The notes under the pieces are model-generated. The model was not told the origin of the DNA and searched no databases. It worked only from the letters and a program-made list of their open reading frames with translations. The position numbers and the translations under genes were made by a program. DNA of 41,720 nt from Acidimicrobiia bacterium (GTDB taxonomy: Bacteria; Actinomycetota; Acidimicrobiia; Spongiisociales; ZC4RG35): positions 1-41,720 of the forward strand of contig JANQRA010000001.1 in the NCBI GenBank assembly GCA_028284765.1, written 5' to 3'. Within the stretch, counting starts at the first letter, position 1, and every line of letters begins with the position of its first letter. Shown here in pieces: positions 1,879 to 21,279 of this stretch.

Positions 1879-1915
1879 TTGACTTTCACGTTGCGTGAAG
1901 ATATCTTCATATATT
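1879..1915 (+). promoter_or_regulatory. Promoter with palindromic operator for the MNT-HEPN operon
   Basis: TTGACT (1879-1884) and TATCTT (1902-1907) are separated by 17 bp. The spacer holds a perfect palindrome, TTCACG-TTG-CGTGAA (1885-1899), and GAAGATATCTTC (1897-1908) is a second perfect 12-bp palindrome overlapping the -10 box. The GTG at 1916 is 8 nt past the -10, predicting a leaderless mRNA. The operator could be bound by the winged-helix domain of the first gene product. Confidence 0.65.
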
Positions 1916-2470
1916 GTGAAAGTAGGCATCCGTCTTCCGATCTTCAGGTCGCCGGAACAAGAGAGGCTTCTCGGCGAACTCTTCGTGTTTGCCGACGGGC
2001 CGATCTCTCTAAGCGAGCTGTCCGCTCGGGCTGGGACGTCGATGGGCGGCACGCACAAGGAAGTGGAAAGACTCGAGGCATCGGGATTGGTCAGATCGAC
2101 GACAGTTGGGCGCAACAGGCTCATAGAAGCCGACCCCAAGTCGCCCGTCTATCAAGACCTGCGAGGACTGCTAGTCAAGACGCTCGGACCTGAACCCCTG
2201 CTTCGCTCTGCCCTAGCCGAAATCGACGGCATCGAAGATGCGTTCATTTACGGCTCATGGGCAGATCCAGCACGGCCGTCTGCGGCGGATATCGACGTCC
2301 TCGTTGTCGGCGACCCCGAATTGGACGCCGTATATGACGCCGCTTCAGCGGTCGAAAGGGTGGTTGGACGCCCCGTCAACGTGGCAATCCGCTCCCCCGC
2401 CGAGTGGGCCGAATCCAACGGTGGATTTGAACGGGCCGTCAAGGCCGGCGCGCGTATTGATCTCAGATGA
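1916..2470 (+). CDS. Winged-helix/MNT nucleotidyltransferase fusion, antitoxin of a MNT-HEPN system
   Basis: The product is 184 residues from GTG 1916; an upstream in-frame GTG at 1895 lies inside the promoter palindrome and is rejected. Residues 13-72 form a winged-helix DNA-binding region (RSPEQERLLGELFV, ISLSELSARAGTSMGGTHKEVERLEASGLV). The C-terminal half is a minimal nucleotidyltransferase: GSW at about 113-115 and DID at about 125-127 supply the GSx10DxD metal-binding signature. In known MntA-HepT systems the MNT protein neutralises the HEPN RNase by adding AMP to it. The fused DNA-binding domain suggests it also represses its own operon. The stop overlaps the HEPN start by 4 nt. Confidence 0.85.
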   Translation: MKVGIRLPIFRSPEQERLLGELFVFADGPISLSELSARAGTSMGGTHKEVERLEASGLVRSTTVGRNRLIEADPKSPVYQDLRGLLVKTLGPEPLLRSALAEIDGIEDAFIYGSWADPARPSAADIDVLVVGDPELDAVYDAASAVERVVGRPVNVAIRSPAEWAESNGGFERAVKAGARIDLR

Positions 2471-2889
2471 GCATCCTCGACGACCTCAGGAATCGTGGGC
2501 TGATCGAAACCGTCAACGCTGATCGAGTCACGGCGAATCAATGGCTCAACGACGCCGAGCGACATCTCGAAGCAGCGCGCCACATTGCCCAACTCGATCC
2601 TTCGGGTGCCTATGTGCTGGCCTACGACGCAGCTCGAAAGGCGGTAGCGGCTGCTCTGCTCATGGACGGACACCGGGTTCTCAGTCGACCCGGAGCTCAC
2701 CGAGCCTTGGCCGAATACTCCGACTGGCTCGCCACGGAAACGGGAGAACGAGCCTTGACACGTTTCGATCGAATGAGAAGGAACCGAAACCAATCAGAGT
2801 ATGGATCAAGGACATTCGGGGAAGCCGAAGTAGTGGGAGCCATCGACACCGCCCGATCGATCCACGCCGCCTGCGCCAATCACATCTGA
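2467..2889 (+). CDS. HEPN-domain toxin partner of the MNT antitoxin
   Basis: The 140-residue, all-helical protein has the HEPN pattern NDAERHLEAARHIAQ, then AYVLAYDAARKAVAAALLMDGHRV, then a basic catalytic-type segment RMRRNRNQSEYG (about 102-113). The Arg-Asn and downstream Tyr correspond to the HEPN active-site region and to the Tyr that MNT partners can AMPylate. It is coupled to the upstream gene by an ATGA overlap. The expected role is an RNase toxin. Its substrate is unknown. Confidence 0.8.
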   Translation: MSILDDLRNRGLIETVNADRVTANQWLNDAERHLEAARHIAQLDPSGAYVLAYDAARKAVAAALLMDGHRVLSRPGAHRALAEYSDWLATETGERALTRFDRMRRNRNQSEYGSRTFGEAEVVGAIDTARSIHAACANHI

Positions 2890-2902
2890 CACGCCCACGA
2901 GG

Positions 2903-2935
2903 AGTGGAACTCTGACGACCGCCCGGAATTGGTGC
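2903..2935 (+). repeat. Degenerate R1 repeat copy (left part only)
   Basis: TGACGACCGCCCGGAATTGG followed by TGCGGT matches the left end of the R1 repeats at 4249, 5984 and 6111 (consensus CCCGGAATAGGTGCGGT). The right half with GTCGTTGTTGGG is not recognisable here. It starts about 14 nt after the HEPN stop codon. Confidence 0.45.
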
Positions 2936-3021
2936 GGTCGACGAGAAGACATCTCCACCCCGACGACCCGGACGACTGCGATGCGACACGGCTCGATGTA
3001 GACCGAAACGCATACTGAACG

Positions 3022-3027
3022 TAGACT
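3022..3027 (+). promoter_or_regulatory. -10 box (TAGACT) of the first MazF-type operon
   Basis: TAGACT ends 8 nt before the antitoxin ATG at 3036, the leaderless spacing seen at other TA operons in this window. The -35 region is weak. GTAGACCGA/GTAGACTGA form a nearby direct repeat. Confidence 0.45.
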
Positions 3028-3035
3028 GACCAGGT

Positions 3036-3275
3036 ATGGCAACCACCACGATCCGCGTCGACACCGACACCCACTCTCGCCTTCAGGCGTTGAGCAAAGA
3101 GTCCGGCAGGTCGCTAATCGAAACCATCCGGGATGCCACAGAAGCTCTCGGCCGACAACGATTCGCTCATCAGGTGGCAACCGAACTAGCTGCGCTGCAA
3201 GCAGACGAGAGTGCCTGGAAGGCCTACCTCGCCGAAGCCGACTCAACGTCAGTTGCAGATGGCATCAGTCGATGA
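3036..3275 (+). CDS. RHH-type antitoxin (MazE role), module 1
   Basis: The 79-residue protein begins MATTTIRVDTDTHSRLQALS, the strand-helix start of VapB/MazE-like RHH antitoxins, with the second helix at SLIETIRDATEALGRQR. The C-terminal half (ELAALQADESAWKAYLAEAD) should wrap the toxin. The gene ends inside the MazF-type toxin gene (17 nt overlap). It is a distant paralogue of the orphan antitoxin at 20965-21159, which shares the TTxRVDxxTH start. Confidence 0.8.
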   Translation: MATTTIRVDTDTHSRLQALSKESGRSLIETIRDATEALGRQRFAHQVATELAALQADESAWKAYLAEADSTSVADGISR

Positions 3276-3597
3276 TCTGTGGCTTGTCGACTTTGGCGAG
3301 CCATACCCGGGTGAGCCGGCAGCCCATCGGCCGGCGCTAGTACTAGGGCCGCCAGAGACTTTCGGACCGAGGTTCCCGTTTGTGATCGTCACACCCCTGA
3401 CGACCACCCGGCAGGGACTCTCTCTCCATATCGAAGTGGAGCCGACCATCGAGAACGGGCTCGACGACACCAGCTACATCCAATGCGAGCTAGTTCGGTC
3501 GATCAATCGAAAGCGTCTGGTGCACCGGCTCGGCACCATCGACGCCGACACCAGCCGGAGCGTCGCCAGCGTCGTCAAAACACTCCTCAGCTACTGA
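3259..3597 (+). CDS. mazF: MazF/PemK-type endoribonuclease toxin, module 1
   Basis: From ATG 3259 the 112-residue product reads MASVDDLWLVDFGEPYPGEPAAH, then RPALVLGP, FVIVTPLTTT, a GLDDTSYIQCELVRSI segment and RLGTID. These are the core strands of the MazF/CcdB fold, with the RP and TSYIxC regions corresponding to the RNA-binding and active-site Arg/Ser/Thr positions. MazF toxins cleave single-stranded RNA at short sequence motifs. An upstream in-frame ATG at 3211 would add 16 residues of low-complexity sequence and is less likely. Confidence 0.85.
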   Translation: MASVDDLWLVDFGEPYPGEPAAHRPALVLGPPETFGPRFPFVIVTPLTTTRQGLSLHIEVEPTIENGLDDTSYIQCELVRSINRKRLVHRLGTIDADTSRSVASVVKTLLSY

Positions 3598-3676
3598 CCC
3601 AAGGCTGCCGACAGAACGCAACAGGCAGTAAAGCTGCCCATCGGTGCAATGGGACTGAGACCCCTTGAATGGATTC

Positions 3677-3708
3677 TTGTCATACGCCTTAGGCTCGACG
3701 TATGACAA
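3677..3708 (+). promoter_or_regulatory. Inverted-repeat operator and leaderless promoter of the second MazF-type operon
   Basis: TTGTCATACG (3677-3686) and CGTATGACAA (3699-3708) form a perfect 10-bp inverted repeat whose right arm contains the antitoxin ATG (3702). TAGGCT (3690-3695) between the arms is a plausible -10 box 6 nt before that ATG, and TTGAAT (3665) is a possible but distant -35. Antitoxin binding would block both transcription and ribosome access. Confidence 0.65.
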
Positions 3709-3953
3709 TGTTCAGCTTCCGTGTCGATACCGAGGAGGCAGAGGAAGCCACCCAGTGGGCTCGGCGTCTCGGCATCGACCGGTCCGAGCTTCTCCGAGAT
3801 GCTCTACATCGATATCTGGTGAGACTCAGGGCAGAAGATGACATCGAAGCGTGGTTGCAGCGGCCCCCAACTGAAGATGAGGAGAGCCTCGGTGAGATCT
3901 CGGACTGGGGTCCCGCCGAAGACTGGACAGACTGGCTCGATGCGACGGGGTGA
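3702..3953 (+). CDS. RHH-type antitoxin (MazE role), module 2
   Basis: The 83-residue protein has the RHH start MTMFSFRVDTEEAEEATQWA and a second helix IDRSELLRDALHRYLVRL. An acidic, Trp-rich tail (DWGPAEDWTDWLDATG) follows, as often seen in actinobacterial MazE-type antitoxins. The start codon lies within the right arm of the operator repeat. The gene overlaps the downstream MazF-type toxin by 14 nt. Confidence 0.8.
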   Translation: MTMFSFRVDTEEAEEATQWARRLGIDRSELLRDALHRYLVRLRAEDDIEAWLQRPPTEDEESLGEISDWGPAEDWTDWLDATG

Positions 3954-8210: not shown

Positions 8211-8313
8211 GTCCCAGGAAGAAGTAGGTGGCGTTAGAGCAAGGAGCCCCGTGGTTGTTGAGAGTTCGAGGGGTTGGGCGCGTCGCGTAAAAGGGGAGTC
8301 AACCCCCGGGGGT
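8211..8313 (+). repeat. R1 dispersed repeat, copy F, ending in a 12-bp palindrome
   Basis: It contains GTCCCAGGAAGAAGTAGGTG, GAGCAAGGAGCCCCGTGGTT, GTTGAGAGTTCG, GGGGTTGGGCGCGTCGCG and GGGGAGTCAACC. The perfect palindrome ACCCCCGGGGGT (8302-8313) sits at its right end and overlaps the last codons of the minus-strand HEPN gene, whose stop is at 8299-8301. Confidence 0.7.
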
Positions 8314-9117
8314 GACGTTGTCATGACCTTGGAGAACCTCAGCGACCGAGTTCACGACGTATTGACAAGCTGAAAGAGCCTCAGTCGACAACTCCGTAAC
8401 CGCGCTTATCGTCCGGGGTTTCCTGCGATGCGCCTTTGCGCCTCTACTAGTCGTGTCGGGGTCCCTCAGGTCGAGTTGATGCACGATTTCGTTTCGAGCA
8501 GTAAAGGCATCCTTGAGCAGGCTCTTGCCAGGATCGATTCTCTTGAGAAAGGCCTGATCGTTGATGCCCAATGCCAATGCGACTTCCTTGAAGCGGTCAG
8601 CAGACTGCAAACTCCCGCCAGTCAAATTGTCGGTATACGACTCAACTAGGGCGTCGCGTGGCTGATCCGACAGGAACAGCCGCGCCACGACCTTCCGATC
8701 AACGGCGCCATCGCTCTGGGCAAGATGCTCTTCAGCGAACCGGACAAGCCGCTTCTCGGCAATCTCGCTGCGTAGCACTACTGCAGGGAGCGCATCGCGC
8801 AACAGTCTCTTCAGTGCAGAGTCGCATCCAGCACCAGCAAATAGCAGGCCGGCCCTGAGCAGGTCCTGATCCGCCTCGCTGTACCGGCCCTTTGATGACT
8901 TACCTTCAAATGCGAGCCGAACGCCACGCTGCCTTGACGCTCCCGACAGTGCACTCTCGACACTCGCCTTTGCTGAATCTAGGTAGTTCTGGGCTCCCAC
9001 AACGAGAGCGGGAAGGCTCGCATCCGGCCATGGCTCCGGGTCAAGCGAGAGATCTACGTTCCAGTTCTTCTTCAACGCGGCAGTGACTCGCTGGCCTGAG
9101 GTCCGATTCGCTGCCAT
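8299..9117 (-). CDS. HEPN-family (RX4H) protein, probable RNase effector of a two-gene unit
   Basis: This roughly 272-residue, mostly helical protein carries RNEIVHQLDL near residue 208. It is a textbook HEPN RX4-6H catalytic motif of the kind found in RiboL-PSP-type HEPN domains. The helical region about 145-235 (LFLSDQPRDALVESYTDNLT, FKEVALALGI, LLKDAFTARN) forms the domain. The N-terminal 110 residues (VGAQNYLDSAKASVESALSG, DLLRAGLLFAGAGCDSALKR) are helical and unassigned. HEPN proteins with this motif act as metal-independent RNases in abortive infection or TA systems. The start at 9117 follows an AAGGTGA ribosome-binding site, 14 nt after the stop of the upstream gene, so the two form an operon. 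The partner is not a known MNT antitoxin. Confidence 0.75.
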   Translation of the reverse strand: MAANRTSGQRVTAALKKNWNVDLSLDPEPWPDASLPALVVGAQNYLDSAKASVESALSGASRQRGVRLAFEGKSSKGRYSEADQDLLRAGLLFAGAGCDSALKRLLRDALPAVVLRSEIAEKRLVRFAEEHLAQSDGAVDRKVVARLFLSDQPRDALVESYTDNLTGGSLQSADRFKEVALALGINDQAFLKRIDPGKSLLKDAFTARNEIVHQLDLRDPDTTSRGAKAHRRKPRTISAVTELSTEALSACQYVVNSVAEVLQGHDNVTPGG

Positions 9118-9131
9118 CACTTCACCTTGCC

Positions 9132-10184
9132 CTAACCCACTGTCCCATCTGGGTCAGTCTCCGTATCCTCGACCTCGGCCACGAACCCAACTGGGAGTTG
9201 GATGGCCAACCGAATCCAGTCGATAAGTTTCCGGCGGCGAGTTGAGCTTGGGTCGCCCTTTGGCAAGGCCTCACTCGAGAGTTCGTCCAGGAGCGGTGTC
9301 TCGACCTCCTCGTCGAGTTCGTTGGCCAACGCTGATTCCAGTTCCTGGTCTGCCTCAAGTTGTACGGCTCGACGCTTCTGCTCGTTGTCCAACTGAATAC
9401 CTTCAGCTTCGTATTTCTCCCTGGTTCCCTGGTACCAGGTAAGCCGTAGCGTCGCGACGATCTGAAGCAGCTTCACGGCTGCTCCGACCGCAGCTCCCCC
9501 GATGAGCAGTATCTCCAAGGGACTTTGCATGTTGAGCGACTGGAGGCGGACCAGTTGGCTGTCTTCAACGTCTGAAGACACCCCGATCATGAGTCGATCC
9601 ACATTCAGCATCAGGTCACTGACCGCGGCAACATTCTGAGCGTCATCTGGAAGCTCGAAGCGCAGGAGCGCCCGGTATCGAGCGTCGGTGGGAGCGACTG
9701 GCAGGCTCGAGTAGGGATCGAATGCTATGTGGGTCAAGCCGCTCGACGGATCGGCCCGAACGATCGTCCCCGTGCGCTCGATCTCAGTCGTCTGCAGGAC
9801 CAGAACTACGGGAGATCCAGCAGGTGGAATGGGCCAAGTTTCAATCGTCGCAGTTGCCGAACCGAGAGCAAGGACAGTCGCGTCCTGCACGGCTGCTCTC
9901 CAGATGATCTGGGCTGGAAACGCCTGGCTGACCTCTGGGTACCGAGCTCGAATGTCCTCCGACCACGCTGAGTCGCCAGCAACAGCGACGTCCAATCTGT
10001 TTATTGGGATGTACGCCTCGTAGCCAAACCGAGCAAGGCGCTGGTAGTGCAGGTACATCCGAGGAGACACTTCTCGCAAACCAATCCCCCTGAGGTACTC
10101 ATTGATCTCGTCGAGCTCGACTCCGCCAGAATGCTGACGGTAGAGCCGATACCCCTCAGCAGCGTCTATTGGTCGTGCAGTCAT
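9132..10184 (-). CDS. Uncharacterised 350-residue protein with one predicted membrane segment, partner of the HEPN gene
   Basis: I do not recognise this family. Residues 1-65 (EGYRLYRQHSGGVELDEINE, SPRMYLHYQRLARFGYEAYI) are helical and Tyr-rich. Residues 125-160 (VVLVLQTTEIERTGTIVRAD, GLTHIAFD) look like a small beta-barrel, perhaps PilZ-like, though that is weak. NMQSPLEILLIGGAAVGAAVKL (read in two parts, about 218-240) is a hydrophobic, probably membrane-associated helix. A charged coiled-coil-like stretch (about 253-295) and acidic tail follow. It is the first gene of a two-gene operon with the HEPN protein, with a GAGGGGG sequence just before its ATG. A sensor plus HEPN effector arrangement is a reasonable inference. 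Confidence 0.6.
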   Translation of the reverse strand: MTARPIDAAEGYRLYRQHSGGVELDEINEYLRGIGLREVSPRMYLHYQRLARFGYEAYIPINRLDVAVAGDSAWSEDIRARYPEVSQAFPAQIIWRAAVQDATVLALGSATATIETWPIPPAGSPVVLVLQTTEIERTGTIVRADPSSGLTHIAFDPYSSLPVAPTDARYRALLRFELPDDAQNVAAVSDLMLNVDRLMIGVSSDVEDSQLVRLQSLNMQSPLEILLIGGAAVGAAVKLLQIVATLRLTWYQGTREKYEAEGIQLDNEQKRRAVQLEADQELESALANELDEEVETPLLDELSSEALPKGDPSSTRRRKLIDWIRLAIQLPVGFVAEVEDTETDPDGTVG

Positions 10185-10366: not shown

Positions 10367-11002
10367 TCAGTCGAGGGGAGCGTCTCCATACCAGGCATTC
10401 CTCCGCTTGTACGGCAGGTGCTCGCTCGTATAGATCAATCGCCGCATGTTCTTGAAACTCTCGGTCTTCACAACTGCCGTCTTGCCCGAATCACCTGGGG
10501 TATTGCTGAGGTCGAAGTCACTCTCGCCTAGTTCCCCCGCTCTTACTTCCCAGATCCAGACGGTGTCGCCTCTGTGCTCCTTGCCGATCTCGAAGTTGCC
10601 ATCACCGTCGCCGAGCACATACCTGAATGTGAGGTAGAACCCTGCTTTGGGAAGGTGCCCTTTCGGCTTATTCGTCTCGAGTGCCGTTTTGATTTCAATC
10701 CGAGGAAGGCTGTCGTCTAGCGGAACAAGGTCTGGAAAGGCGTGTGGCCTGTTTCGCACATAGCGACCATCGGAGGCCTCGGCGAGGCCTGCTCCGAGGA
10801 GGTTCCCAAGCATCGACGAGAGGTTCGCTAGTTCAACAATGCCAGAGAGCGGGTCTGACCCTTTGGCCGTGAGTTGCTCGTCGATAGTGTCGAGTGTGTC
10901 ATACGCCGACTCGATTCCCCGATGGATCCAGTCGACAGCGAGGCCTGTCTCACCCGCCAGAAAGTCGTCGTGCGCGGTTGCTTGGTCAACTCTGGGCCGC
11001 AT
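10367..11002 (-). CDS. Probable type II restriction endonuclease (PD-(D/E)xK-like)
   Basis: The product is 211 residues from ATG 11002; ATG 11029 would add nine. The segment FPDLVPLDDSLPRIEIKTAL holds an Asp-rich turn followed by E-I-K, fitting a PD-(D/E)xK nuclease core, and a charged beta region with TVWIWEVRAGELGESDFDLS follows. No close family is recognised. Its identity is inferred mainly from position: it overlaps an XRE regulator, which is divergent from an m5C methyltransferase, the standard layout of type II systems with a controller protein. The tail LIYTSEHLPYKRRNAWYGDA is basic. Confidence 0.6.
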   Translation of the reverse strand: MRPRVDQATAHDDFLAGETGLAVDWIHRGIESAYDTLDTIDEQLTAKGSDPLSGIVELANLSSMLGNLLGAGLAEASDGRYVRNRPHAFPDLVPLDDSLPRIEIKTALETNKPKGHLPKAGFYLTFRYVLGDGDGNFEIGKEHRGDTVWIWEVRAGELGESDFDLSNTPGDSGKTAVVKTESFKNMRRLIYTSEHLPYKRRNAWYGDAPLD

Positions 11003-11348
11003 CAGGCTCCCTCGCGTCCTCCCGAGCAAGACGCTGCTCTCCTAGAGAGATCAATTCCGAGGTGGCTAGACCGAGAGACCGAGCGATCTGCGCCGCGGTA
11101 GCGATAGTCAGCTTTCTCTCGCCGCGCTCAACCAAACCGATAGAGGTGCGGTGCAGGCCGGCGTGAGCGGCGAGATCCTCCATTGTCATGCCCTGTTCGT
11201 GACGTCGGTCGCGGACTACCTCACCGACAGCTGCTGACAACTCAAGCCCGAATCTCTCCACAAAGCCCAACGTAGAAAAGCTGGCCTGTCCGGTCCACGA
11301 GACTATGGTCTCCACCGGACCCGGATTTCTGTCGGTCTCGTCCGGCAC
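10986..11348 (-). CDS. XRE-family regulator of the restriction-modification set
   Basis: The 120-residue protein has a lambda-repressor-type HTH at about 47-100: VRDRRHEQGMTMEDLAAHAG, LHRTSIGLVERGERKLTIAT, AAQIARSLGLATSELI. This is the layout of restriction-modification controller proteins, which time endonuclease expression after methylation. It overlaps the endonuclease start by 17-44 nt. A roughly 40-residue N-terminal extension is longer than usual for a C protein. The GTG start (11348) is 32 nt from the divergent methyltransferase start, so one short intergenic region would control both directions. Confidence 0.8.
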   Translation of the reverse strand: MPDETDRNPGPVETIVSWTGQASFSTLGFVERFGLELSAAVGEVVRDRRHEQGMTMEDLAAHAGLHRTSIGLVERGERKLTIATAAQIARSLGLATSELISLGEQRLAREDAREPDAAQS

Positions 11349-11380
11349 GATGCGAGACAGCTCAGCTTAGGAGTGGAGGA

Positions 11381-12568
11381 GTGAAGCGCTACAAGGTAAT
11401 GGACCTCTTCTGTGGGACCGGTGGCTTTTCTAAAGGCTTTGAGAACCAGGGTGAATTCGATGTGATCTACGGGATCGATCTACTCGATTCATCGGTGGAT
11501 ACCTTCAAAGCCAACCATCCGCAGGCCCTCGGTCTTTCTGGCGACATTCGAGCAACCAGACGTTCGGAGGTCGCAGACCGGCTCAGTCTCCTAGCCGGGG
11601 ATGTTGATGTAGTCGTCGGTGGCCCACCGTGCCAAGGATTCTCGTCGATCAGGCCATTCCGCTCTACCTACGATGATGATCCTCGAAACGACCTCTTTGA
11701 GGAGTTCGCGGCCTACGTGAACTTCTTCCGCCCTCACTACCTGGTCTTCGAGAATGTCGTCGGGTTGGCCACTCACAAGAAGGGCTCGACCATGGACGCG
11801 ATTCTCGACGCATTCGACGGCCTTGGCTACGACGTCGATTGGCGGATTCTGAATTCTGCCCACTTCGGAGTACCGCAGAAGAGGGAGCGCCTCATCGTTC
11901 TGGGAGCGGAACGAGGGATACCTATCGAGTTCCCTCAGCCGACCAGAGCCGGAACGTTCAAGACCATAGGTCACGTCGAGCAAAACCGAATGCTCAGACC
12001 CCCGGAAAGCTTGGAAGGGACACTCTTCGAGATCGATGTTGATCCGCTTCCTCACGCGTGGACGGTTGAAGAAGCGATCGGAGACTTGCCCATAATCGCG
12101 TCCGGCGACGAGGCGACTATGTATGACAAGCCGCCTACCAACGAATACCAGCGTGCACGCCGGGGTGGGTCATCGTCCCTAGCACTCCACTCGGCTACCC
12201 GTCACTCGGATCGCATGTTGGAGATCATTCGCCACTCGGGTCCAAACATCCAATCGATCCCGGAGCATCTGATTTCCAGCGGGTTCAGTTCGTGCTACTC
12301 GAGACTGGACGCAAACACTCCCTCCACGACGATCACAGTGAATTTCGTGCACCCTGCGTCGAATCGCTGTATTCACCCTTACTCTGATCGTGCACTGACG
12401 CCACGCGAGGGAGCAAGACTCCAGTCGTTCGACGACAGCTTCAAGTTCCTGGGCAGCAGAACGCAGATCGTCAAGCAGATCGGCAATGCGGTGCCTCCAT
12501 TGTTGGGAGAGTCCCTGGCCGGTTCGGTCGCTCGATCCCTTGCTGGGCGAAGCGCCGTTGCCAACTGA
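11381..12568 (+). CDS. DNA (cytosine-5-)-methyltransferase
   Basis: The 395-residue enzyme carries the m5C motifs in order. Motif I is MDLFCGTGGFSKGF (7-20). Motif IV is GGPPCQGFSS (80-89) with catalytic Cys84. Motif VI is ENVVGL (124-129). Motif VIII is QKRERLIVLG. TITVNF and PREGARLQSF (motif IX) follow, then motif X QIGNAVPPLLGESLA near the C-terminus. It transfers a methyl group from SAM to cytosine C5 and here most likely protects DNA from the neighbouring endonuclease. The GTG start follows a GGAGTGGAGGA ribosome-binding sequence. Target recognition (about 250-310) cannot be read from the sequence. Orphan regulatory methylation is less likely given the neighbours. Confidence 0.95.
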   Translation: MKRYKVMDLFCGTGGFSKGFENQGEFDVIYGIDLLDSSVDTFKANHPQALGLSGDIRATRRSEVADRLSLLAGDVDVVVGGPPCQGFSSIRPFRSTYDDDPRNDLFEEFAAYVNFFRPHYLVFENVVGLATHKKGSTMDAILDAFDGLGYDVDWRILNSAHFGVPQKRERLIVLGAERGIPIEFPQPTRAGTFKTIGHVEQNRMLRPPESLEGTLFEIDVDPLPHAWTVEEAIGDLPIIASGDEATMYDKPPTNEYQRARRGGSSSLALHSATRHSDRMLEIIRHSGPNIQSIPEHLISSGFSSCYSRLDANTPSTTITVNFVHPASNRCIHPYSDRALTPREGARLQSFDDSFKFLGSRTQIVKQIGNAVPPLLGESLAGSVARSLAGRSAVAN

Positions 12569-13506: not shown

Positions 13507-14058
13507 TCACACGAGAGGATGGCGTCCGTTCTGACGTGTATTCGCAGCTGCTTCGGCTCGACCTCGAGCCTTGAGTTCCTTCAGCAGGAGGCCAGCCATG
13601 ATCGTCTTCCCCGCTCCAGGGTCGTCGGCGAGCAGGAACCTGATTCGGGGAAGGCTGAAGAAGTAGTCGTACACCGCCTCCAACTGATGCGGCAGGAGAT
13701 CGATCCGGGCAATCGACAGCGAGAAGTAGGGGTCGTACTCATACGCCAGCCCCAGACGCATCGCTTCGACCCCGAGCCGAAAGAGCTGCGGATCACCGTC
13801 GAAGGGCTGTTCTACCGGTGTTGCGGTCAGGTCGTCGAGGTGTCGCTTGTCAAGGAGTATCTCTCTGACCTGATTGGCGTGAAGTCCCTTACCGACGATC
13901 TTGACTGACTCGCCTACGGGTGTGGTCACCAGGATTTGAACCGGTTCGGGGAACACCGGGCCCTGGACGATCACGTCCGGCTTCAAGTCAGCTAGTTCCA
14001 CTGGTGGTCCGCTCTCCTCAGGCGTAGACGCTCGCGACGTTATAGGCAGCTCGGGCAC
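13507..14058 (-). pseudogene. Truncated SNF2/DEAD-type helicase, N-terminal piece ending after Walker A
   Basis: The 183 codons from GTG 14058 encode the start of a large defence-type helicase. There is an N-terminal domain (KIVGKGLHANQVREILL, GVEAMRLGLAYEYDPYFSLS), then a Q-motif-like IDLLPHQLEAVYDYFFSLPR and Walker A LLADDPGAGKTIMAGLLLKE. Twenty-odd residues later the frame ends in unrelated sequence (RQNGRHPLV), so all other helicase motifs (II-VI) are missing. Full-length relatives occur in DISARM-type and other defence islands. It lies directly downstream of the Shedu gene, suggesting a deleted neighbouring defence system. It is probably non-functional. Confidence 0.75.
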
Positions 14059-14120: not shown

Positions 14121-15386
14121 TCAGTCTTCGGTCAAGCTCAGGATCTCCCGAAGCGTGTTCAGCCATGTCTGAGCGCGCTTGGCGACGAGATCATACGGAA
14201 GAATCTCCACGCGGTGCAGCGTCTGATTCAGCTGCTCGAGCACGGTCCTTTGATGTGGCTGCAGATCGTGGTCCCTTCCGATCACGATGATGAACCTTGG
14301 ACTACGAGCGAGATTCAGGCCATAGAGGCTGGACAAGTGCTGTGGGCTGCCGGAAAGCGCGTCGCGGTAGAAGTGGATCTGGGCAAGTGCGGCTGCCAAG
14401 CTCGGACCCAACCGATACGTGCTTGCGGGAGGCGGCACACCATCCTGAACCTCCGGCGCAATGACAATCGGATCCGCTGGTCCCTTCAATTCGAGGACGT
14501 CGAAGTAGCCGTCGAATCTATCGAGGACGAAGTCGAGTTCACCTCGTGGAATGTTCACCTTCGACCGGACTCTCACATAGTCCATACCGAGCAGCCAGGG
14601 TGTTTCCTGCAGGAAAGCGTGCAACTCAGTCTCCGTGACCCCTGACGAAACAAGCTCGTCGTATTCCGATGCCGCTAGCTCCAAATCCTGCAATCTCTCT
14701 GCAATGCGATTGCCGATGGTGTGGATCGTTGCTCGGCGGCCGGTTCTATCGCCTGTGGTGACCCGTGCGAGGTGTTCCCATTGATCCTCTTCGATCAGCA
14801 CCCCAAGAGCGTCGAGTAGTGCCTCCCATTCGATGTCATCGAATCTTTCAAAAGATGCGATTGCATCCTCAATGGTCACGTCGGCCTTTGGATCGGGGCT
14901 CCGACCCAAAGCTTGGCTGAGGTCGGCGACACGTTCCGCATCAACCGAAGCCCACTTGGCGATTAGGTCCGTTGTCAGATGCTCGTCGAGAAAGAGCTGC
15001 AGAAGTTCTGGTGACTCAGCTAGATCGCTGAACCGGGAGAGAGATGCAATGCCCGTGCCAATTGTGTCTGCAAAATACGTAGATGCGGCATCAGCGTGAT
15101 CAAGCTTCAGATAGTCATGGATTCGTACAACCAAGATGTATTCATGGTCAGTCTCAACGGGAGTGCGATCGGCTGCTTCGTTGGCCGTAAGGAGGAGAGC
15201 TGGGGCCTTGCCGTCCGGGGCTTCTCTAGTCGCTAGGCGCGCAAGGGAGAGGCCGTTTCGGAACTGGGCGCGCCGGTCAGGAAAGACGTCCGTCCATCTG
15301 AAGTCGTAATAGATCTTCAACCCGAGCAGCCGACGAGGGCCGCCGCGTCGGGTCCTCATTGACGAGAGATCCCAGCTATCGGCCAT
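14121..15386 (-). CDS. sduA: Shedu-type anti-phage nuclease (SduA-like, DUF4263)
   Basis: This protein of about 421 residues is predicted to start at ATG 15386, which has an AGGAGGA ribosome-binding site 8 nt upstream; ATG 15410 is weaker. The C-terminal region from about 250 carries the DUF4263/Shedu signature: TELHAFLQETPWLLG, then RGELDFVLDRFDGYFDVLEL and LKGP. This is a PD-(D/E)xK-like core with E-L-D and E-L-K as metal-binding and catalytic residues. IHFYRDALSGSPQHLSSLYG and RFIIVIGRDHDLQPHQRTVL follow as in family members. The N-terminal 240 residues would act as sensing or regulatory domain. Shedu is a single-gene defence system. The neighbours (restriction-modification, helicase fragment, integrase) fit a defence island. 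Confidence 0.85.
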   Translation of the reverse strand: MADSWDLSSMRTRRGGPRRLLGLKIYYDFRWTDVFPDRRAQFRNGLSLARLATREAPDGKAPALLLTANEAADRTPVETDHEYILVVRIHDYLKLDHADAASTYFADTIGTGIASLSRFSDLAESPELLQLFLDEHLTTDLIAKWASVDAERVADLSQALGRSPDPKADVTIEDAIASFERFDDIEWEALLDALGVLIEEDQWEHLARVTTGDRTGRRATIHTIGNRIAERLQDLELAASEYDELVSSGVTETELHAFLQETPWLLGMDYVRVRSKVNIPRGELDFVLDRFDGYFDVLELKGPADPIVIAPEVQDGVPPPASTYRLGPSLAAALAQIHFYRDALSGSPQHLSSLYGLNLARSPRFIIVIGRDHDLQPHQRTVLEQLNQTLHRVEILPYDLVAKRAQTWLNTLREILSLTED

Positions 15387-15507
15387 GAGGCGTGTCCTCC
15401 TATTGGCCAACCACGCTACCGATGCCTTCTCATAGAAGCGCTAAAACTCCCGCTATCAAACATCGCCCTTCTTGTCCCTTCGGGATTGTACGTTGGAATC
15501 AAGAAGC

Positions 15508-15566: not shown

Positions 15567-15620
15567 ATGGCTCAGCTTATTGCTGACTCTGGTTTCGATC
15601 GCATGGGGAGCGATCACTGA
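15567..15620 (+). CDS. Seventeen-codon leader ORF translationally coupled to the integrase
   Basis: ATG 15567 is preceded by AGGGAGGTGA, one of the best ribosome-binding sites in the window. It encodes MAQLIADSGFDRMGSDH. Its TGA overlaps the integrase ATG (TGATG), so translation of this leader would deliver ribosomes to the recombinase. Its role is probably regulatory rather than through the peptide itself. Confidence 0.5.
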   Translation: MAQLIADSGFDRMGSDH

Positions 15621-16789
15621 TGCAGGGGCACATCCACAAACGTGTCCGTACCTGCAAGAACGGTCGGAAGTCGACACTCTGGTACGTGGTGGTCGATCTG
15701 CCACAAGGCGCCAACGGCGAGCGCCGGCAGAAGTGGCACGGCGGGTTCCAGACCAAGAAGGCGGCGGAGGCGGTGCGGGCCCGTCTCGGCCACGAGTTGA
15801 CCACCGGGTTCTACGTGGAGCCGTCACGAATGCTGCTCAGCGAATGGTTGGTCGACCACTGGCTGCCGGTGCACAAGACCCGGGTGAAGAAGACGACGTA
15901 TCGGGCGTATCGGTCGGCAGTCGTCCATCACATCAACCCGAGGATCGGTGGCGTGGCGATCGGAAAGCTGAAACCGCAGATGCTCAACAACCTGTATCAG
16001 CAGCTGTTGGCCGACGGACGTTGTGACGGCGAAGGCGGGCTAGCTCCGGCGACGGTGAGCGGCGTCCACGTGGTGTTGCGGAAGGCGTTGGCCGACGCCG
16101 AGGACGCCGGGCTGATCCCGAGGAACCCGGCGGTCAGGGCCAAGCCGCCACGTCCCAAGTCGCAGGGTGGCGAGCTCCGCTACTGGACACCAGCCGAGTT
16201 GCGGGAATTCCTTGGGCTGGTGGAAGGGCATCGTCTCGAGGCTGCATTTCATCTGCTGGCGATGACCGGGGCCCGACGTGGTGAGGTTGCCGGGTTGCGG
16301 TGGGTCGACGTCGACCTTGATGCTGCCCGGATCACTATCCGTCAGACGTTGCTGGCTGGCGACGGCGAGGTGTATGTGTCATCTCCGAAGAGTGGGCGTG
16401 GGCGGACCGTCGATCTCGATCAGGCAACTGTGGACCAGCTGCGTGAGCACCGGGAGCGTCAAATTCAGGAGGCGGCGAAGACGTGGCGGTGGGAGGACAG
16501 CGGGTACGTGTTCACCAGGAAGGACGGGTCGGCGCTGAATCCATCGACGTTGACCCGGGCGTTCCGGTGGATTGTCGACCATTCGGAGCTGCCCCGGATC
16601 CGTCTGCATGATCTGCGGCACACCCATGCCTCGATTGCGGTGAAGGCGGGTGTGCCCATCGGTGTGGTCAGTGAGCGGCTAGGGCATGCCTCACCGGAGT
16701 TCACCCTGCACCGGTATTCGCATGTGATGCCAGGGATGCAACGGGAAGCGGCGGATGCGGTGGCGAGGGCGGTGCGGTTTGCGGGGTGA
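15620..16789 (+). CDS. Phage/ICE-type tyrosine recombinase (site-specific integrase)
   Basis: This complete 389-residue integrase has an N-terminal arm-binding-like domain (HKRVRTCKNGRKSTLWYVVV, KKAAEAVRARLGHELTTGFY), a SAM-like core-binding domain (about 72-165) and a catalytic domain. All catalytic residues are visible: Arg219 in TGARRGE, Lys257 in SPKSGRGRT, His330 and Arg333 in HDLRHTH, His356 in LGHASPE and nucleophile Tyr366 in HRYSHVMPG. It breaks and rejoins DNA through a 3'-phosphotyrosine at att sites. No excisionase, relaxase or phage structural gene lies nearby. It is the only recombinase in the window and is therefore the prime candidate for mobilising this island. Whether it uses R1 or R2 is unknown. 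Confidence 0.93.
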   Translation: MQGHIHKRVRTCKNGRKSTLWYVVVDLPQGANGERRQKWHGGFQTKKAAEAVRARLGHELTTGFYVEPSRMLLSEWLVDHWLPVHKTRVKKTTYRAYRSAVVHHINPRIGGVAIGKLKPQMLNNLYQQLLADGRCDGEGGLAPATVSGVHVVLRKALADAEDAGLIPRNPAVRAKPPRPKSQGGELRYWTPAELREFLGLVEGHRLEAAFHLLAMTGARRGEVAGLRWVDVDLDAARITIRQTLLAGDGEVYVSSPKSGRGRTVDLDQATVDQLREHRERQIQEAAKTWRWEDSGYVFTRKDGSALNPSTLTRAFRWIVDHSELPRIRLHDLRHTHASIAVKAGVPIGVVSERLGHASPEFTLHRYSHVMPGMQREAADAVARAVRFAG

Positions 16790-16835: not shown

Positions 16836-16877
16836 GTTTCGGGCGGTAATGAAAGGACGCCCCTGAGCGACTTAGAG

Positions 16878-19421
16878 GTGAATACGCTGCTGCAGCAGCT
16901 TGAGGACATCTATGCCGGAAGCAGGGCAACGAAGGCAGCATGGCCCAATGAACGGATAGAGCTCGAGAAGCTTCTCCCAATGGTGGCCGAGGAGGTTTCG
17001 TTCAACTACGACTTGGTTCGGCCTCTAGCGGTTGGTGGAGGCGGAGTCGTTTTTGAAGTCGAGGACAGGAATCTCGGGGTGACTCGAGCGTTGAAGCTGG
17101 CGCGCCCGTCTCCCGGCAAAGAACGGTTCTTGGCAGAGTCACTAACGGCCGAAACCGATAAGCTGACGCGGTTGGCCCACGCCAACCTGATGCCGGTCTA
17201 TGCCAGAGGGGTCGTGACCACCGAGGAGCAGGCAAGCCCCTTCTACGTAATGCGGTTCATAGAAGGTGTCGTAGACCTCGATGACGCCCTAGAGAAACAC
17301 ACCCTGGATGGTCATCGCTTGATTCCTGCAATTGCCGCTCTCGTGGATGTGATTTCCTACCTCCACAGCAATGACGTTGCGCATATGGACCTGAAGCCCG
17401 CAAATGTCATGCTCGAATCTGATGGCTCTCCGCTTCTCGGCGATCTTGGGTTCGCCAAAGACCTAGATCTCAGCGATGGCGACACTATGGCGGCCGGAAC
17501 AGATGGCTACACCCATCCAGAATATGCGAACTACTTGGTCGAGGCTTCCTCGGACCCGAATCGGAACAGTGGCCCAATCCCGCGTGACGTTGTATCCACA
17601 TACGGGCGCGTTTGGGACTTGTTCGGACTAGGTAAGACCATCGAGCGACTGCTGGCCTCTCAAATCGCACAAAGGGAACTCGACAACTACACGTATTCGT
17701 ATCTGGAACTGATGAGTGCGAGGCTCCTCGACGGTCACTACGACGGCGAGGCAGTCCTTGGACTCGGCAGGGACGCTATAGCCGAGTTGTCCTATACAAC
17801 GATTGCCGAAGTTCAGTTCGACGTACTGAAGCTGCTTGGTTCGGTGGACATTCTCGAGCTTGTACCTGAGCTCAACGTTTTTAGCATGAAGACTGTCCAA
17901 GTGTCGACGCTCGCGACCACTCCATTGACCGAACGGGTCAGTCGCGTGGTCGGGTCTAAGGGCATGCTGAGGCTCAAGGGGTTCACACAACTTGGTCTGT
18001 TGGATCTCATCTATCCGACCGCCGTTCACACCAGATTTGAACATGTTCTCGGCACCTACAGCGCTGTCGCTCGGTATCTCAATGCGCTCTACAACGACCC
18101 CTTGAACCCCGTGTTCAAGCAACTGATGACAGTCGAGGACTTTGAAACGGCGCTCCTCGCTGCTCTCTTGCATGACATCGGACACTTCCCGCTTGCTCAC
18201 GACTTTGAGGAAGCGGTTCCACGTTTGATCTCACATGAGCGAATGGGCTCCGAACTCCGCTCCCAGGACGATTCTCTGCGTCGAGCCCTGGCAACAGACC
18301 ACGAAGCGGCCCCTGGAGCAGCGGGCCATTCATGGAACACGAGCATTGAACGGGTTGAAGCCGTCCTTTCATCGGACATCGGCTCATGCTCGGGCCACTT
18401 CAGAGACCGCATCATCAAGTCACTGATCGACGGACCCATTGACGCAGACAAGCTTGACTATCTCATGCGCGACTCGCAGGTACTCGGGTTAAAAGCCGGG
18501 TTCGGCATCGACGTGGAGCGCCTGCTACGCACCCTCACAGTGGTGGTCCGGCCTGGCCACGAAGGCCGAACGTTTGGAGCCTTGGGCATACATGAGAAGG
18601 GGAAGGTCACGGCGGAGTCCGTGGCCTTCGCGCGTTACACGCTCTACGGGTCTGTTTATTGGCATCACACCTACCGAGCCATCAAGGCGATGCTTCACTT
18701 CGCGGTTTGGGACTGGTTGGGGTCTACGGACACGAAGGCTGCGATTTCAAACCTCACGGAATTTGTAGGACTGCTCGATTCTCAGCAGACCAGCTTGCCC
18801 TTGGATTCCGGCGAAATGCCAGCGTCGGAGACTCTAGTCTCAGGAAACGAACTGGAAATGTTGCGCTGGTTGGCTGATCGCTCTGGAGATCGCTCCAAAG
18901 TTGTGTTGAGGCGTATTGTCGACCGTCAGTTGCATAAGCGTTTAGCCGTATGGTCACACGGATATGCCGGTCAGCAAAACGTCTGGGCACAAATGCGAAG
19001 GTTTGTGGAAACTCAGACCGAAAAAGACTCAGGATGGACACACCGCCAGACCCTTCAAGAACGGGTTGGGTCTGAGATCATTTCTCGAATTGGCGCCCGC
19101 GACTCCGCCCTCGCCGAAAATCTTAAGAAACTCAACCACCACGTTCCGATCTTCCTCATAGATATGCCTATCCCCAAGAGGGCAGCTACCACGGGCTTGG
19201 AGTATGTGTTCGAAGGCTCGCGTGCCGAGCTGAGAGCCAAGCGGACACTTAGCACGTCGCGTTTCGAGGACTCTGAGGTTTGGAACATTCTCAACAGCCA
19301 GTTTCATCAGTCGCTGGCAAATCTCCGTTTGTACTGCGAGCCGTCGGTTGTGGACCTGGTTAGGGAAGCCGGCGATCGTGACCTTTTGGAGCATGCGATG
19401 ATCGAGGCTTTCCGTACCTGA
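16878..19421 (+). CDS. Ser/Thr protein kinase-HD phosphohydrolase (SAMHD1/dGTPase-like) fusion
   Basis: The 847-residue protein joins two enzymes. Residues 45-300 are a Hanks-type kinase: Gly-loop VGGGGVVFEV (52-61), ATP Lys73 in ALKLARP, catalytic loop HMDLKPANVML (169-179) and a DFG variant, GDLG (188-191). Residues 365-640 are an HD hydrolase close to dNTP triphosphohydrolases: RLKGFTQLG, YPTAVHTRFEHVLG (His384/His389), LLHDIGHFPLAHDFE (His432-Asp433) and IDADKLDYLMRD (about 521-532). The C-terminal 200 residues are unassigned. A kinase could sense or regulate an HD domain that depletes nucleotides during infection; this is inference. GTG 16878 lacks a well-spaced ribosome-binding site. 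CTG 16863 (LSDLEVNTLL) lies 5 nt after AAAGGA and may be the true start. A reverse R1 copy follows 16 nt downstream. Confidence 0.88.
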   Translation: MNTLLQQLEDIYAGSRATKAAWPNERIELEKLLPMVAEEVSFNYDLVRPLAVGGGGVVFEVEDRNLGVTRALKLARPSPGKERFLAESLTAETDKLTRLAHANLMPVYARGVVTTEEQASPFYVMRFIEGVVDLDDALEKHTLDGHRLIPAIAALVDVISYLHSNDVAHMDLKPANVMLESDGSPLLGDLGFAKDLDLSDGDTMAAGTDGYTHPEYANYLVEASSDPNRNSGPIPRDVVSTYGRVWDLFGLGKTIERLLASQIAQRELDNYTYSYLELMSARLLDGHYDGEAVLGLGRDAIAELSYTTIAEVQFDVLKLLGSVDILELVPELNVFSMKTVQVSTLATTPLTERVSRVVGSKGMLRLKGFTQLGLLDLIYPTAVHTRFEHVLGTYSAVARYLNALYNDPLNPVFKQLMTVEDFETALLAALLHDIGHFPLAHDFEEAVPRLISHERMGSELRSQDDSLRRALATDHEAAPGAAGHSWNTSIERVEAVLSSDIGSCSGHFRDRIIKSLIDGPIDADKLDYLMRDSQVLGLKAGFGIDVERLLRTLTVVVRPGHEGRTFGALGIHEKGKVTAESVAFARYTLYGSVYWHHTYRAIKAMLHFAVWDWLGSTDTKAAISNLTEFVGLLDSQQTSLPLDSGEMPASETLVSGNELEMLRWLADRSGDRSKVVLRRIVDRQLHKRLAVWSHGYAGQQNVWAQMRRFVETQTEKDSGWTHRQTLQERVGSEIISRIGARDSALAENLKKLNHHVPIFLIDMPIPKRAATTGLEYVFEGSRAELRAKRTLSTSRFEDSEVWNILNSQFHQSLANLRLYCEPSVVDLVREAGDRDLLEHAMIEAFRT

Positions 19422-19550: not shown

Positions 19551-19602
19551 AAAACACCTGGTCAGCGCGATATCCGTCAGGTGACAATCAGGTGCGACTC
19601 AC
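19551..19602 (+). repeat. R2 dispersed repeat, copy a
   Basis: It contains AAAACACCTGGTCAGCGCGA, TATCCGTC and GGTGCGACTCAC. It shares CTGGTCAGCGCGATAT with copy b. It lies 9 nt before the 3' end of the HTH antitoxin gene and 19 nt from R1 copy H. Confidence 0.6.
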
Positions 19603-19610
19603 TTTCGGGG

Positions 19611-19946
19611 CTAAGACGCTGCTTCTCCAATGTGAATCGGGACTGCGCGTTCCTCGTCAGCTCCAAACACGGCCGTCAGTTCCAAGCGTGCTCCGAGCTT
19701 TTCCAAGTACTTCCTCAACGTGGAAAGTTTCAAGTCGCCAGCGCGTTCGAGTTGAGAAATTGCGGACTGGCTTATGTCGAGCTTCGCAGCCAGATCTTCC
19801 TGGGAAACGTCGAGGACGCGGCGAAGCTCGAAGAGGCCAATCTCCACGAGCGTCTCCTCACGGAGGGCGTCGAGACGCTTGAGCGCGCCCTCACGCTCCA
19901 CAACACGCTGATGCAGTTCCTTGTAGTTCTTGGCCTTAGGCATCAC
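19611..19946 (-). CDS. XRE-family antitoxin (HigA-like)
   Basis: The 111-residue protein has a long N-terminal helix (AKNYKELHQRVVEREGALKR, LDALREETLVEIGLFEL) and a C-terminal HTH: LRRVLDVSQEDLAAKLDISQ, SAISQLERAGDLKLSTLRKY. LEKLGARLELTAVFGADEER follows. This layout is that of HigA-type antitoxins encoded after their RelE-fold toxin. The ATG overlaps the toxin's stop by about 11 nt, so the two are co-translated. It should bind the toxin and repress the shared promoter. Confidence 0.85.
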   Translation of the reverse strand: MMPKAKNYKELHQRVVEREGALKRLDALREETLVEIGLFELRRVLDVSQEDLAAKLDISQSAISQLERAGDLKLSTLRKYLEKLGARLELTAVFGADEERAVPIHIGEAAS

Positions 19947-20319
19947 TTTCTCCTTGATGCTCGATGGTCACTCTTCGATCAAACCTTCCTGACGCAGCTC
20001 CTGCAGGTGTGTCGTACAAGTCATCCGCCTCTGGGATTGCCACTTCGTACCAGCGCTCCCACTCTCCAGACTTGTCTCCGCCAAGCAGCAAGATCGCATG
20101 CCGACGAGGATCAAACGCAAAGAGAACCCGCAAGGCACCACCCTTAGATGCTCGAAGCTCCTTCATGTTTGGATGCCGCGAATTGGTGATGCTCCCGACA
20201 ACTGGCCTCCGAAGGGCAGGCCCGTGCGTCTCAAGGAGCATCACCCGATCATCAATGGCTTCCTGTTGCTCGACTGTCAGCGTCTCCCACCAGTCTTCGA
20301 ACTCGTGGGTGTATTCCAC
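19936..20319 (-). CDS. RelE/HigB-fold toxin, N-terminus possibly disrupted by a +1 G
   Basis: From GTG 20319 the product is 127 residues: VEYTHEFEDWWETLTVEQQE, then RPVVGSITNSRHPNMKELRA, RVLFAFDPRRHAILLLGGDK and EWERWYEVAIPEADDLYD. This is the HigB/phage-derived RelE-like fold with basic catalytic-region residues. Homologues commonly begin (M)xxWEVEYT. Here IWEVEYT is open upstream, but the nearest ATG (20335) is one base out of frame. Deleting one G from the GGGG run at 20330-20333 would give MGIWEVEYT, 8 nt downstream of a TATAGC -10 box. The toxin may therefore be weakened or rely on the GTG. Confidence 0.75.
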   Translation of the reverse strand: MEYTHEFEDWWETLTVEQQEAIDDRVMLLETHGPALRRPVVGSITNSRHPNMKELRASKGGALRVLFAFDPRRHAILLLGGDKSGEWERWYEVAIPEADDLYDTPAGAASGRFDRRVTIEHQGESDA

Positions 20320-20395
20320 TTCCCAGATGCCCCATGAGCATAAGCTATAGCTAATAGAAGTGCAATCTTCTACTGAGGGCGGATGTTCCCGATCG

Positions 20396-21220: not shown

Positions 21221-21279
21221 CACAAACCCTCTGGTCAGCGCGATATGCCTCGATTGAGAAACGGGCGCAGTGGACTCAC
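21221..21279 (+). repeat. R2 dispersed repeat, copy b
   Basis: It contains CACAAACCCTCTGGTCAGCG, CGATATGCCTCGATTGAGAA and ACGGGCGCAGTGGACTCAC. It shares its core with copy a and the right half (TTGAGAA...GCTGGAC type) with copy c. It separates the decayed VapBC cluster from the Doc cluster. Confidence 0.65.

Follow-up and report, generated by a model that had tools for sequence, protein, structure and literature searches.

The window analysed here, one entire contig of 41,720 bases from a 2.9-Mb genome assembled into 23 contigs, encodes in a single uninterrupted reading frame a Ser/Thr protein kinase followed by an HD hydrolase of the EF1143/SAMHD1 type. This architecture had been proposed by the initial annotation, and both the Pfam matches and the separate structure models of the two halves agree with it. 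We tentatively read the product as a mobile, single-protein nucleotide-depletion immune switch gated by its own kinase, a reading whose chances we put a little short of even. The gene is organised as follows.

16863-19421, plus strand: whole gene, fusion of a Ser/Thr kinase and a predicted HD dNTPase (open reading frame with a GTG start at 16878, 847 residues, or a CTG start at 16863, 852 residues)
16878-16997, plus strand: N-terminal helical leader, residues 1-40 (helices 2-13 and 22-40 in the structure model; without family match)
16974-17840, plus strand: protein kinase domain, about residues 33-321 (Pfam, alignment and structure model; G53, K73, E92, HMD 169-171, K173, N176, DLG 189-191, E215, D247)
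17865-19418, plus strand: predicted EF1143/SAMHD1-type HD dNTP triphosphohydrolase, residues 330-847 (R386, H389, H432, D433, H436, H441, H453, D524, Y528, D532)
17952-17978, plus strand: residues 359-367, equivalent by alignment of SAMHD1 allosteric site 1 (D137, Q142, R145), here G359, L364 and K367
18795-19418, plus strand: C-terminal lobe of the HD enzyme, residues 640-847 (structure alignment, profile comparison, common motifs, Pfam match in a stand-alone relative)

The frame 16878-19421 holds neither stop nor frameshift. Its first ATG, GTG or TTG start is the GTG at 16878, with a ribosome-binding site poorer than that of the in-frame CTG at 16863, which has AAAGGA 5 bases upstream and is plausible as the start given earlier. 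Three Pfam families match the protein above their curated gathering scores: Pkinase (PF00069) at residues 46-217 (1.2e-18), HD at 386-464 (7.6e-07) and HD_assoc_2 at 544-621 (5.6e-10). The two halves were modelled separately (a joint alignment of kinase and HD had been misaligned), and the models show the fold of each, while the kinase and dNTPase activities are those to be expected from the families. That an assembly error joined two genes is hardly credible: the genome is indeed an assembly of 23 contigs, but the junction, at about residues 320-330, is in frame, with a complete domain on either side of it and similar GC3 in the two halves.

The kinase half appears competent for catalysis. 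Aligned with 12 bacterial kinases it keeps G53, K73, E92, H169, D171, K173, N176, D189, G191, P214, E215 and D247, among which K73, E92, D171, N176, D189 and E215 (the VAIK Lys, alpha-C Glu, catalytic Asp, Asn, DFG Asp and APE Glu) are invariant across all these proteins. Its catalytic loop reads HMD and not HRD, the Arg being present in all 12 compared kinases, and Leu replaces Phe in the DFG motif (DLG). The loop is thus not of the RD type, which is a mark of subtype, non-RD kinases still being kinases; as a rule these are independent of activation-loop phosphorylation. From its residues we expect an active kinase of the non-RD type. Modelled as residues 1-325 (mean pLDDT 78), this half aligns in structure with protein kinases (Z up to 21.6; 20.6-21.0 for PknB), and the two N-terminal helices are placed ahead of the domain. 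Its best PADLOC match is PD-T4-6 (4.1e-26, residues 42-225 to 9-193 of 292), but this match is unspecific and mirrors the shared kinase core, which is all that matches over the length of the model; kinases of this class are generic. By the features tested, we assign this half to the eukaryotic-like Ser/Thr protein kinases, with phosphotransfer as its predicted activity.

The solved structures closest in sequence to the HD half are 2hek, 2q14, EF1143 (2o6i) and SAMHD1 proteins. In structure alignment the model of residues 330-847 matches residues 3-455 of EF1143 (4lrl_C, in complex with dGTP and dTTP) with Z 32.5 and 3.7 A over 415 residues, and residues 115-577 of SAMHD1 with Z 29.6; model confidence is mostly 76-94 per block of ten in residues 345-610 and ranges from 29 to 88 in the blocks of the C-terminal lobe, parts of which have pLDDT under 50. 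The catalytic apparatus described for SAMHD1 and EF1143 comprises R164, H210, H215, H233 and an H...HD...D metal site (PMC8177086). The equivalents in the fusion, R386, H436, H441 and H453 for the former and H389, H432, D433 and D524 for the latter, are all present and are kept in nearly all relatives. The intact catalytic motifs noticed at first (HMDLKPANV, GDLG, HTRFEH, HD, DADKLDY) are therefore no chance matches, because the catalytic residues follow family-wide conservation. The tested features place this half in the EF1143/SAMHD1 branch (Dgt-type models match it weakly, 1.1e-05), and we infer that it would hydrolyse dNTPs to nucleoside and triphosphate.

The C-terminal 200 residues had been left without assignment, and this has to be corrected: they belong to the HD enzyme, because the structure alignment to EF1143 and SAMHD1 extends to residue 847. 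The profile comparison aligns them, weakly, with stand-alone relatives (E 6.9e-05, probability 63%), and the two groups have in common the motifs RxLxKR (RQLHKR in the fusion, RVLYKR in relatives), LIDxP (LIDMP, LIDAP) and an ending QF...R[LV][YF]xxP (SQFHQSLANLRLYCEP, KQFDDFVKRVRVFAHP). In one stand-alone relative, that of locus L107, HD_assoc_2 spans the equivalent stretch almost fully (239-460 to 1-205 of 222). An extra C-terminal domain was considered and rejected on these grounds.

The regulatory site of the HD half departs from its family. Where SAMHD1 has D137, Q142 and R145 in activator site 1, the fusion has G359, L364 and K367, a correspondence obtained by reading the SAMHD1 sequence by eye against the alignment, and the canonical residues are absent. 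Of the 38 rows in two alignments of relatives, 35 have D, N or E at the first position and 36 have Q or R at the second, so G and L are rare there; the third is mostly R and more variable than the other two. This suggests that allosteric control of the HD half is altered. Because of the residues found at site 1, the usual activation by dGTP/GTP may be lost or changed, and the change is consistent with this control being replaced.

Several known systems come close to parts of the fusion. EF1143 of Enterococcus faecalis (PDB 2o6i/3irh/4lrl), for which a role in regulating the cell's dNTP pool is described (PMC8177086), has the same whole fold and the same metal and catalytic residues as residues 330-847, but it lacks a kinase and dGTP activates its Mg form, whereas the fusion has a kinase and G/L/K at the activator positions. 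SAMHD1, the eukaryotic antiviral dNTPase, resembles the fusion in its HD fold, active site and order of parts (an N-terminal regulatory module, then the HD enzyme); it carries a SAM domain where the fusion carries the kinase, differs in the activator-site residues and is phosphorylated by separate kinases, phosphorylation of T592 being described as regulating its restriction activity (PMC4980677). In Bacteria, dNTPases are established anti-phage effectors through CloA of Clover and SpdGTPase (PMC12265719). Clover (the dGTPase CloA with the nucleotidyltransferase CloB) and SpdGTPase employ an HD dNTPase effector as the fusion would, and in Clover it is held back by a second enzymatic activity. 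Control in Clover is exerted by nucleotides (dTTP, and p3diT made by a separate gene product), and the paper mentions no kinase (PMC12265719). No nucleotidyltransferase gene adjoins the fusion, the nearest being in an MNT-HEPN pair 14 kb away. One structure first taken for Clover, PDB 9mr6, proved to be a fungal SAMHD1 and was set aside. PD-T4-6 and the related defence Ser/Thr kinases in PADLOC match nothing beyond the generic kinase core, the fusion having a predicted HD dNTPase as its second half. The kinase-kinase-phosphatase module KKP of Pf prophages resembles the fusion in setting, with element-borne Ser/Thr kinases acting in phage defence, and differs from it by having separate genes that include a phosphatase and no nucleotide hydrolase (PMC11341870). 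The sequences closest to the HD half are stand-alone HD proteins of Planctomycetota (such as L061, L062 and L068), which reach 41% identity and share with it the C-terminal lobe and a PE[LV] motif near the N-terminus, but measure about 450 residues and lack a fused kinase. The fusion is neither a Clover nor a PD-T4-6 system.

The gene sits in a stretch of about 21 kb (about 1.2 to 22.1 kb of the window) rich in defence-type genes, with a GC content of about 56-60% against 60-65% in the right flank. It comprises, in addition to a SoFic match (1.7e-85), a Doc/Fic gene and several toxin-antitoxin-like pairs, the following.

1895-2889, plus strand: overlapping pair of an MNT-type nucleotidyltransferase (with HTH) and a HEPN gene, PADLOC candidate PDC-M05 (PDC-M05A/B)
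8299-10184, minus strand: HEPN_RiboL-PSP-like gene (weak match) and, before it on the same strand, a 350-residue gene without family match, possibly one operon
10367-12568, both strands: likely type II restriction-modification system with an EIK nuclease-like frame (minus; by motif only, without family match), a control-protein-like HTH gene (minus) and a cytosine-5 methyltransferase (plus)
13507-14058, minus strand: truncated SNF2/HmaA-like helicase (2.2e-30) reduced to an N-terminal fragment, a remnant of a larger defence system
14121-15410, minus strand: Shedu-like SduA with an N-terminal region of about 230 residues ahead of the SduA_C domain
15620-16789, plus strand: tyrosine integrase with Arm-DNA-bind_4, SAM-like and catalytic domains (Pfam), ending 88 bases upstream of the GTG at 16878
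19611-20334, minus strand: toxin-antitoxin pair of XRE-type HTH and Gp49/RelE type, its HTH gene (19611-19946) being the first gene downstream of the fusion

The integrase reported ahead of the gene is thus confirmed as a tyrosine integrase, and the defence reading first offered for the gene is borne out as to its setting, mobile and with Shedu, restriction-modification, SoFic, MNT-HEPN and toxin-antitoxin genes within 20 kb. It is weakened by how common HD-only relatives are. Defence islands also carry non-defence cargo. The boundaries of the integrase element were not found: the island showed no tRNA or clear attachment site, and comparison of its flanks with 40 relatives yielded no empty site. 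An exact 16-bp direct repeat (CTGGTCAGCGCGATAT, at 19558-19573 and 21231-21246), inside a longer repeat of 46 bp and 74% identity, flanks the toxin-antitoxin genes and not the integrase, and recurs with one mismatch at one more site of the genome; it is possibly a recombination site or a shared regulatory element.

The fusion has been seen once. No second kinase-HD fusion turned up in about 1,220 distinct genomes, a sample that is a small part of known diversity. The full-length protein, searched against 296 genomes of the class, gave only kinase matches besides the window gene. The HD half was searched in 396 genomes of the phylum, 199 of Planctomycetota, 345 of the class, 299 of Pseudomonadota and 29 of the class that holds the closest relative; among the 132 HD-bearing and 28 kinase-bearing frames collected, the window gene alone has both domains. 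No place in the plasmid and phage collections covered 80% of the protein, and viral contigs carried the HD domain at 39 loci and a kinase at 31, never the two together; the scan of genome contigs and the first viral scan require exact 8-residue matches and so exclude close relatives only. The earlier statement that no single-protein system of this architecture is known stands, and searches of the PMC texts, which miss most subscription journals, found no paper on it. Long HD-matching frames in Planctomycetota, Actinomycetota and Pseudomonadota (up to 1303 residues) were fetched and searched as candidate fusions, and none has a kinase; a match to residues 657-740 in another genome (G090) was rejected, because the frame runs antisense to the gene for a solute-binding protein in a transporter locus.

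Relatives of the HD half in Planctomycetota, Actinomycetota, Pseudomonadota and viral contigs all lack a kinase. They are widespread chromosomal proteins (in the phylum search, 31 of the 46 matching genomes fall in two families, f66 and f72), possibly with housekeeping roles, and for this reason the HD half alone is no sign of defence. A quick tree places the HD half next to the stand-alone proteins of Planctomycetota. Support for this is modest (87), and the branch is long (2.3 changes per site), for which relaxed selection could also be the reason. The 344 other genomes of the class hold no close HD gene of the EF1143 type, only distant HD or Dgt-type matches, and the gene was therefore probably acquired from outside the class. 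Of 19 loci with the closest HD relatives, 2 have a kinase gene at a distance of up to 10 kb, directly adjacent in neither. At L107 (8541-13474, minus strand) a planctomycete has a Ser/Thr kinase gene, a membrane-protein-like gene and the stand-alone HD gene in a row on the same strand. We rejected this as a kinase-HD operon, as the kinase gene is paired with an ECF sigma gene and the order is absent from the other loci; the arrangement is probably incidental, and possibly an unfused version of the fusion. A conserved EF1143-type HD protein of 510-515 residues also occurs on prophages and viral contigs (L146-L157 and, at 2415-3947, the Klebsiella phage ST11-VIM1phi8.3, L056); in the latter it lies near an integrase. 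The protein is a candidate prophage-borne dNTPase cargo.

How such a protein might work can be put as a hypothesis with three parts: kinase gating, an infection trigger and phage protection. The kinase would be triggered by a sensed infection cue (no sensor domain is recognisable in the protein) and would serve as the control of the hydrolase. The simplest way would be phosphorylation of the HD half, either in cis or from one subunit of an oligomer to another, and this could in principle activate or restrain it. Metal-dependent hydrolysis of dNTPs by the HD half would then drain the pool and stop phage DNA replication. A more specific and more doubtful version holds that the fused kinase, placed where SAMHD1 has its SAM domain, replaces nucleotide allostery, so that phosphorylation relays infection sensing to dNTP depletion within one mobile protein. 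The intact active sites, complete domains, similar GC3 and the defence island with its integrase support the reading as a single-protein switch. Its main weakness is the singleton status, because a pairing seen once among about 1,220 genomes offers no evolutionary comparison by which to test it.

Other readings must be weighed against this one. The same enzyme could do another job, regulating the dNTP pool of the host or of the integrating element in the cell cycle or under stress and having no anti-phage role, which we consider unlikely. In its favour, HD-only relatives are widespread on chromosomes, EF1143 is described as a pool regulator (PMC8177086), and a Caulobacter dNTPase promotes cell-cycle progression (PMC12186491). 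Against it, no other genome searched in the class carries the fusion gene, and the gene lies directly behind an integrase among defence genes, where housekeeping genes are rarely placed. It is also conceivable, at a still lower probability, that the protein is defensive with an HD half that is constitutive or controlled by dNTPs alone, while the kinase acts on other targets, in the manner of stand-alone defence kinases, and the fusion merely co-localises two effectors. The generic PknB/PD-T4-6-like core fits this, as does the defence of hosts by Ser/Thr kinases in element-borne modules such as KKP (PMC11341870); but the direct N-terminal fusion and the altered activator site favour coupling, and enzymes of this kind have to be restrained, since a lowered supply of nucleotides is toxic to the host itself (PMC12265719).

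Quite improbable, in our judgement, is a lineage-specific fusion that arose once without selected function, or a cargo gene in decay. The fusion is a singleton, its HD half is on a long branch, and the truncated SNF2/HmaA fragment at 13507-14058 shows that decay does occur in the island, but 847 codons without a stop and the intact catalytic residues of both enzymes speak against it. The single-protein immune switch remains the reading that we put forward, as a tentative one.

How cells restrain dNTP-destroying immune enzymes before infection is an open question. Clover, a known bacterial answer, relies on nucleotide signals, and SAMHD1 on nucleotides together with phosphorylation by outside kinases. 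With hydrolase and kinase in one chain, the control of a SAMHD1-type enzyme by phosphorylation becomes testable with two point mutants of a single gene.
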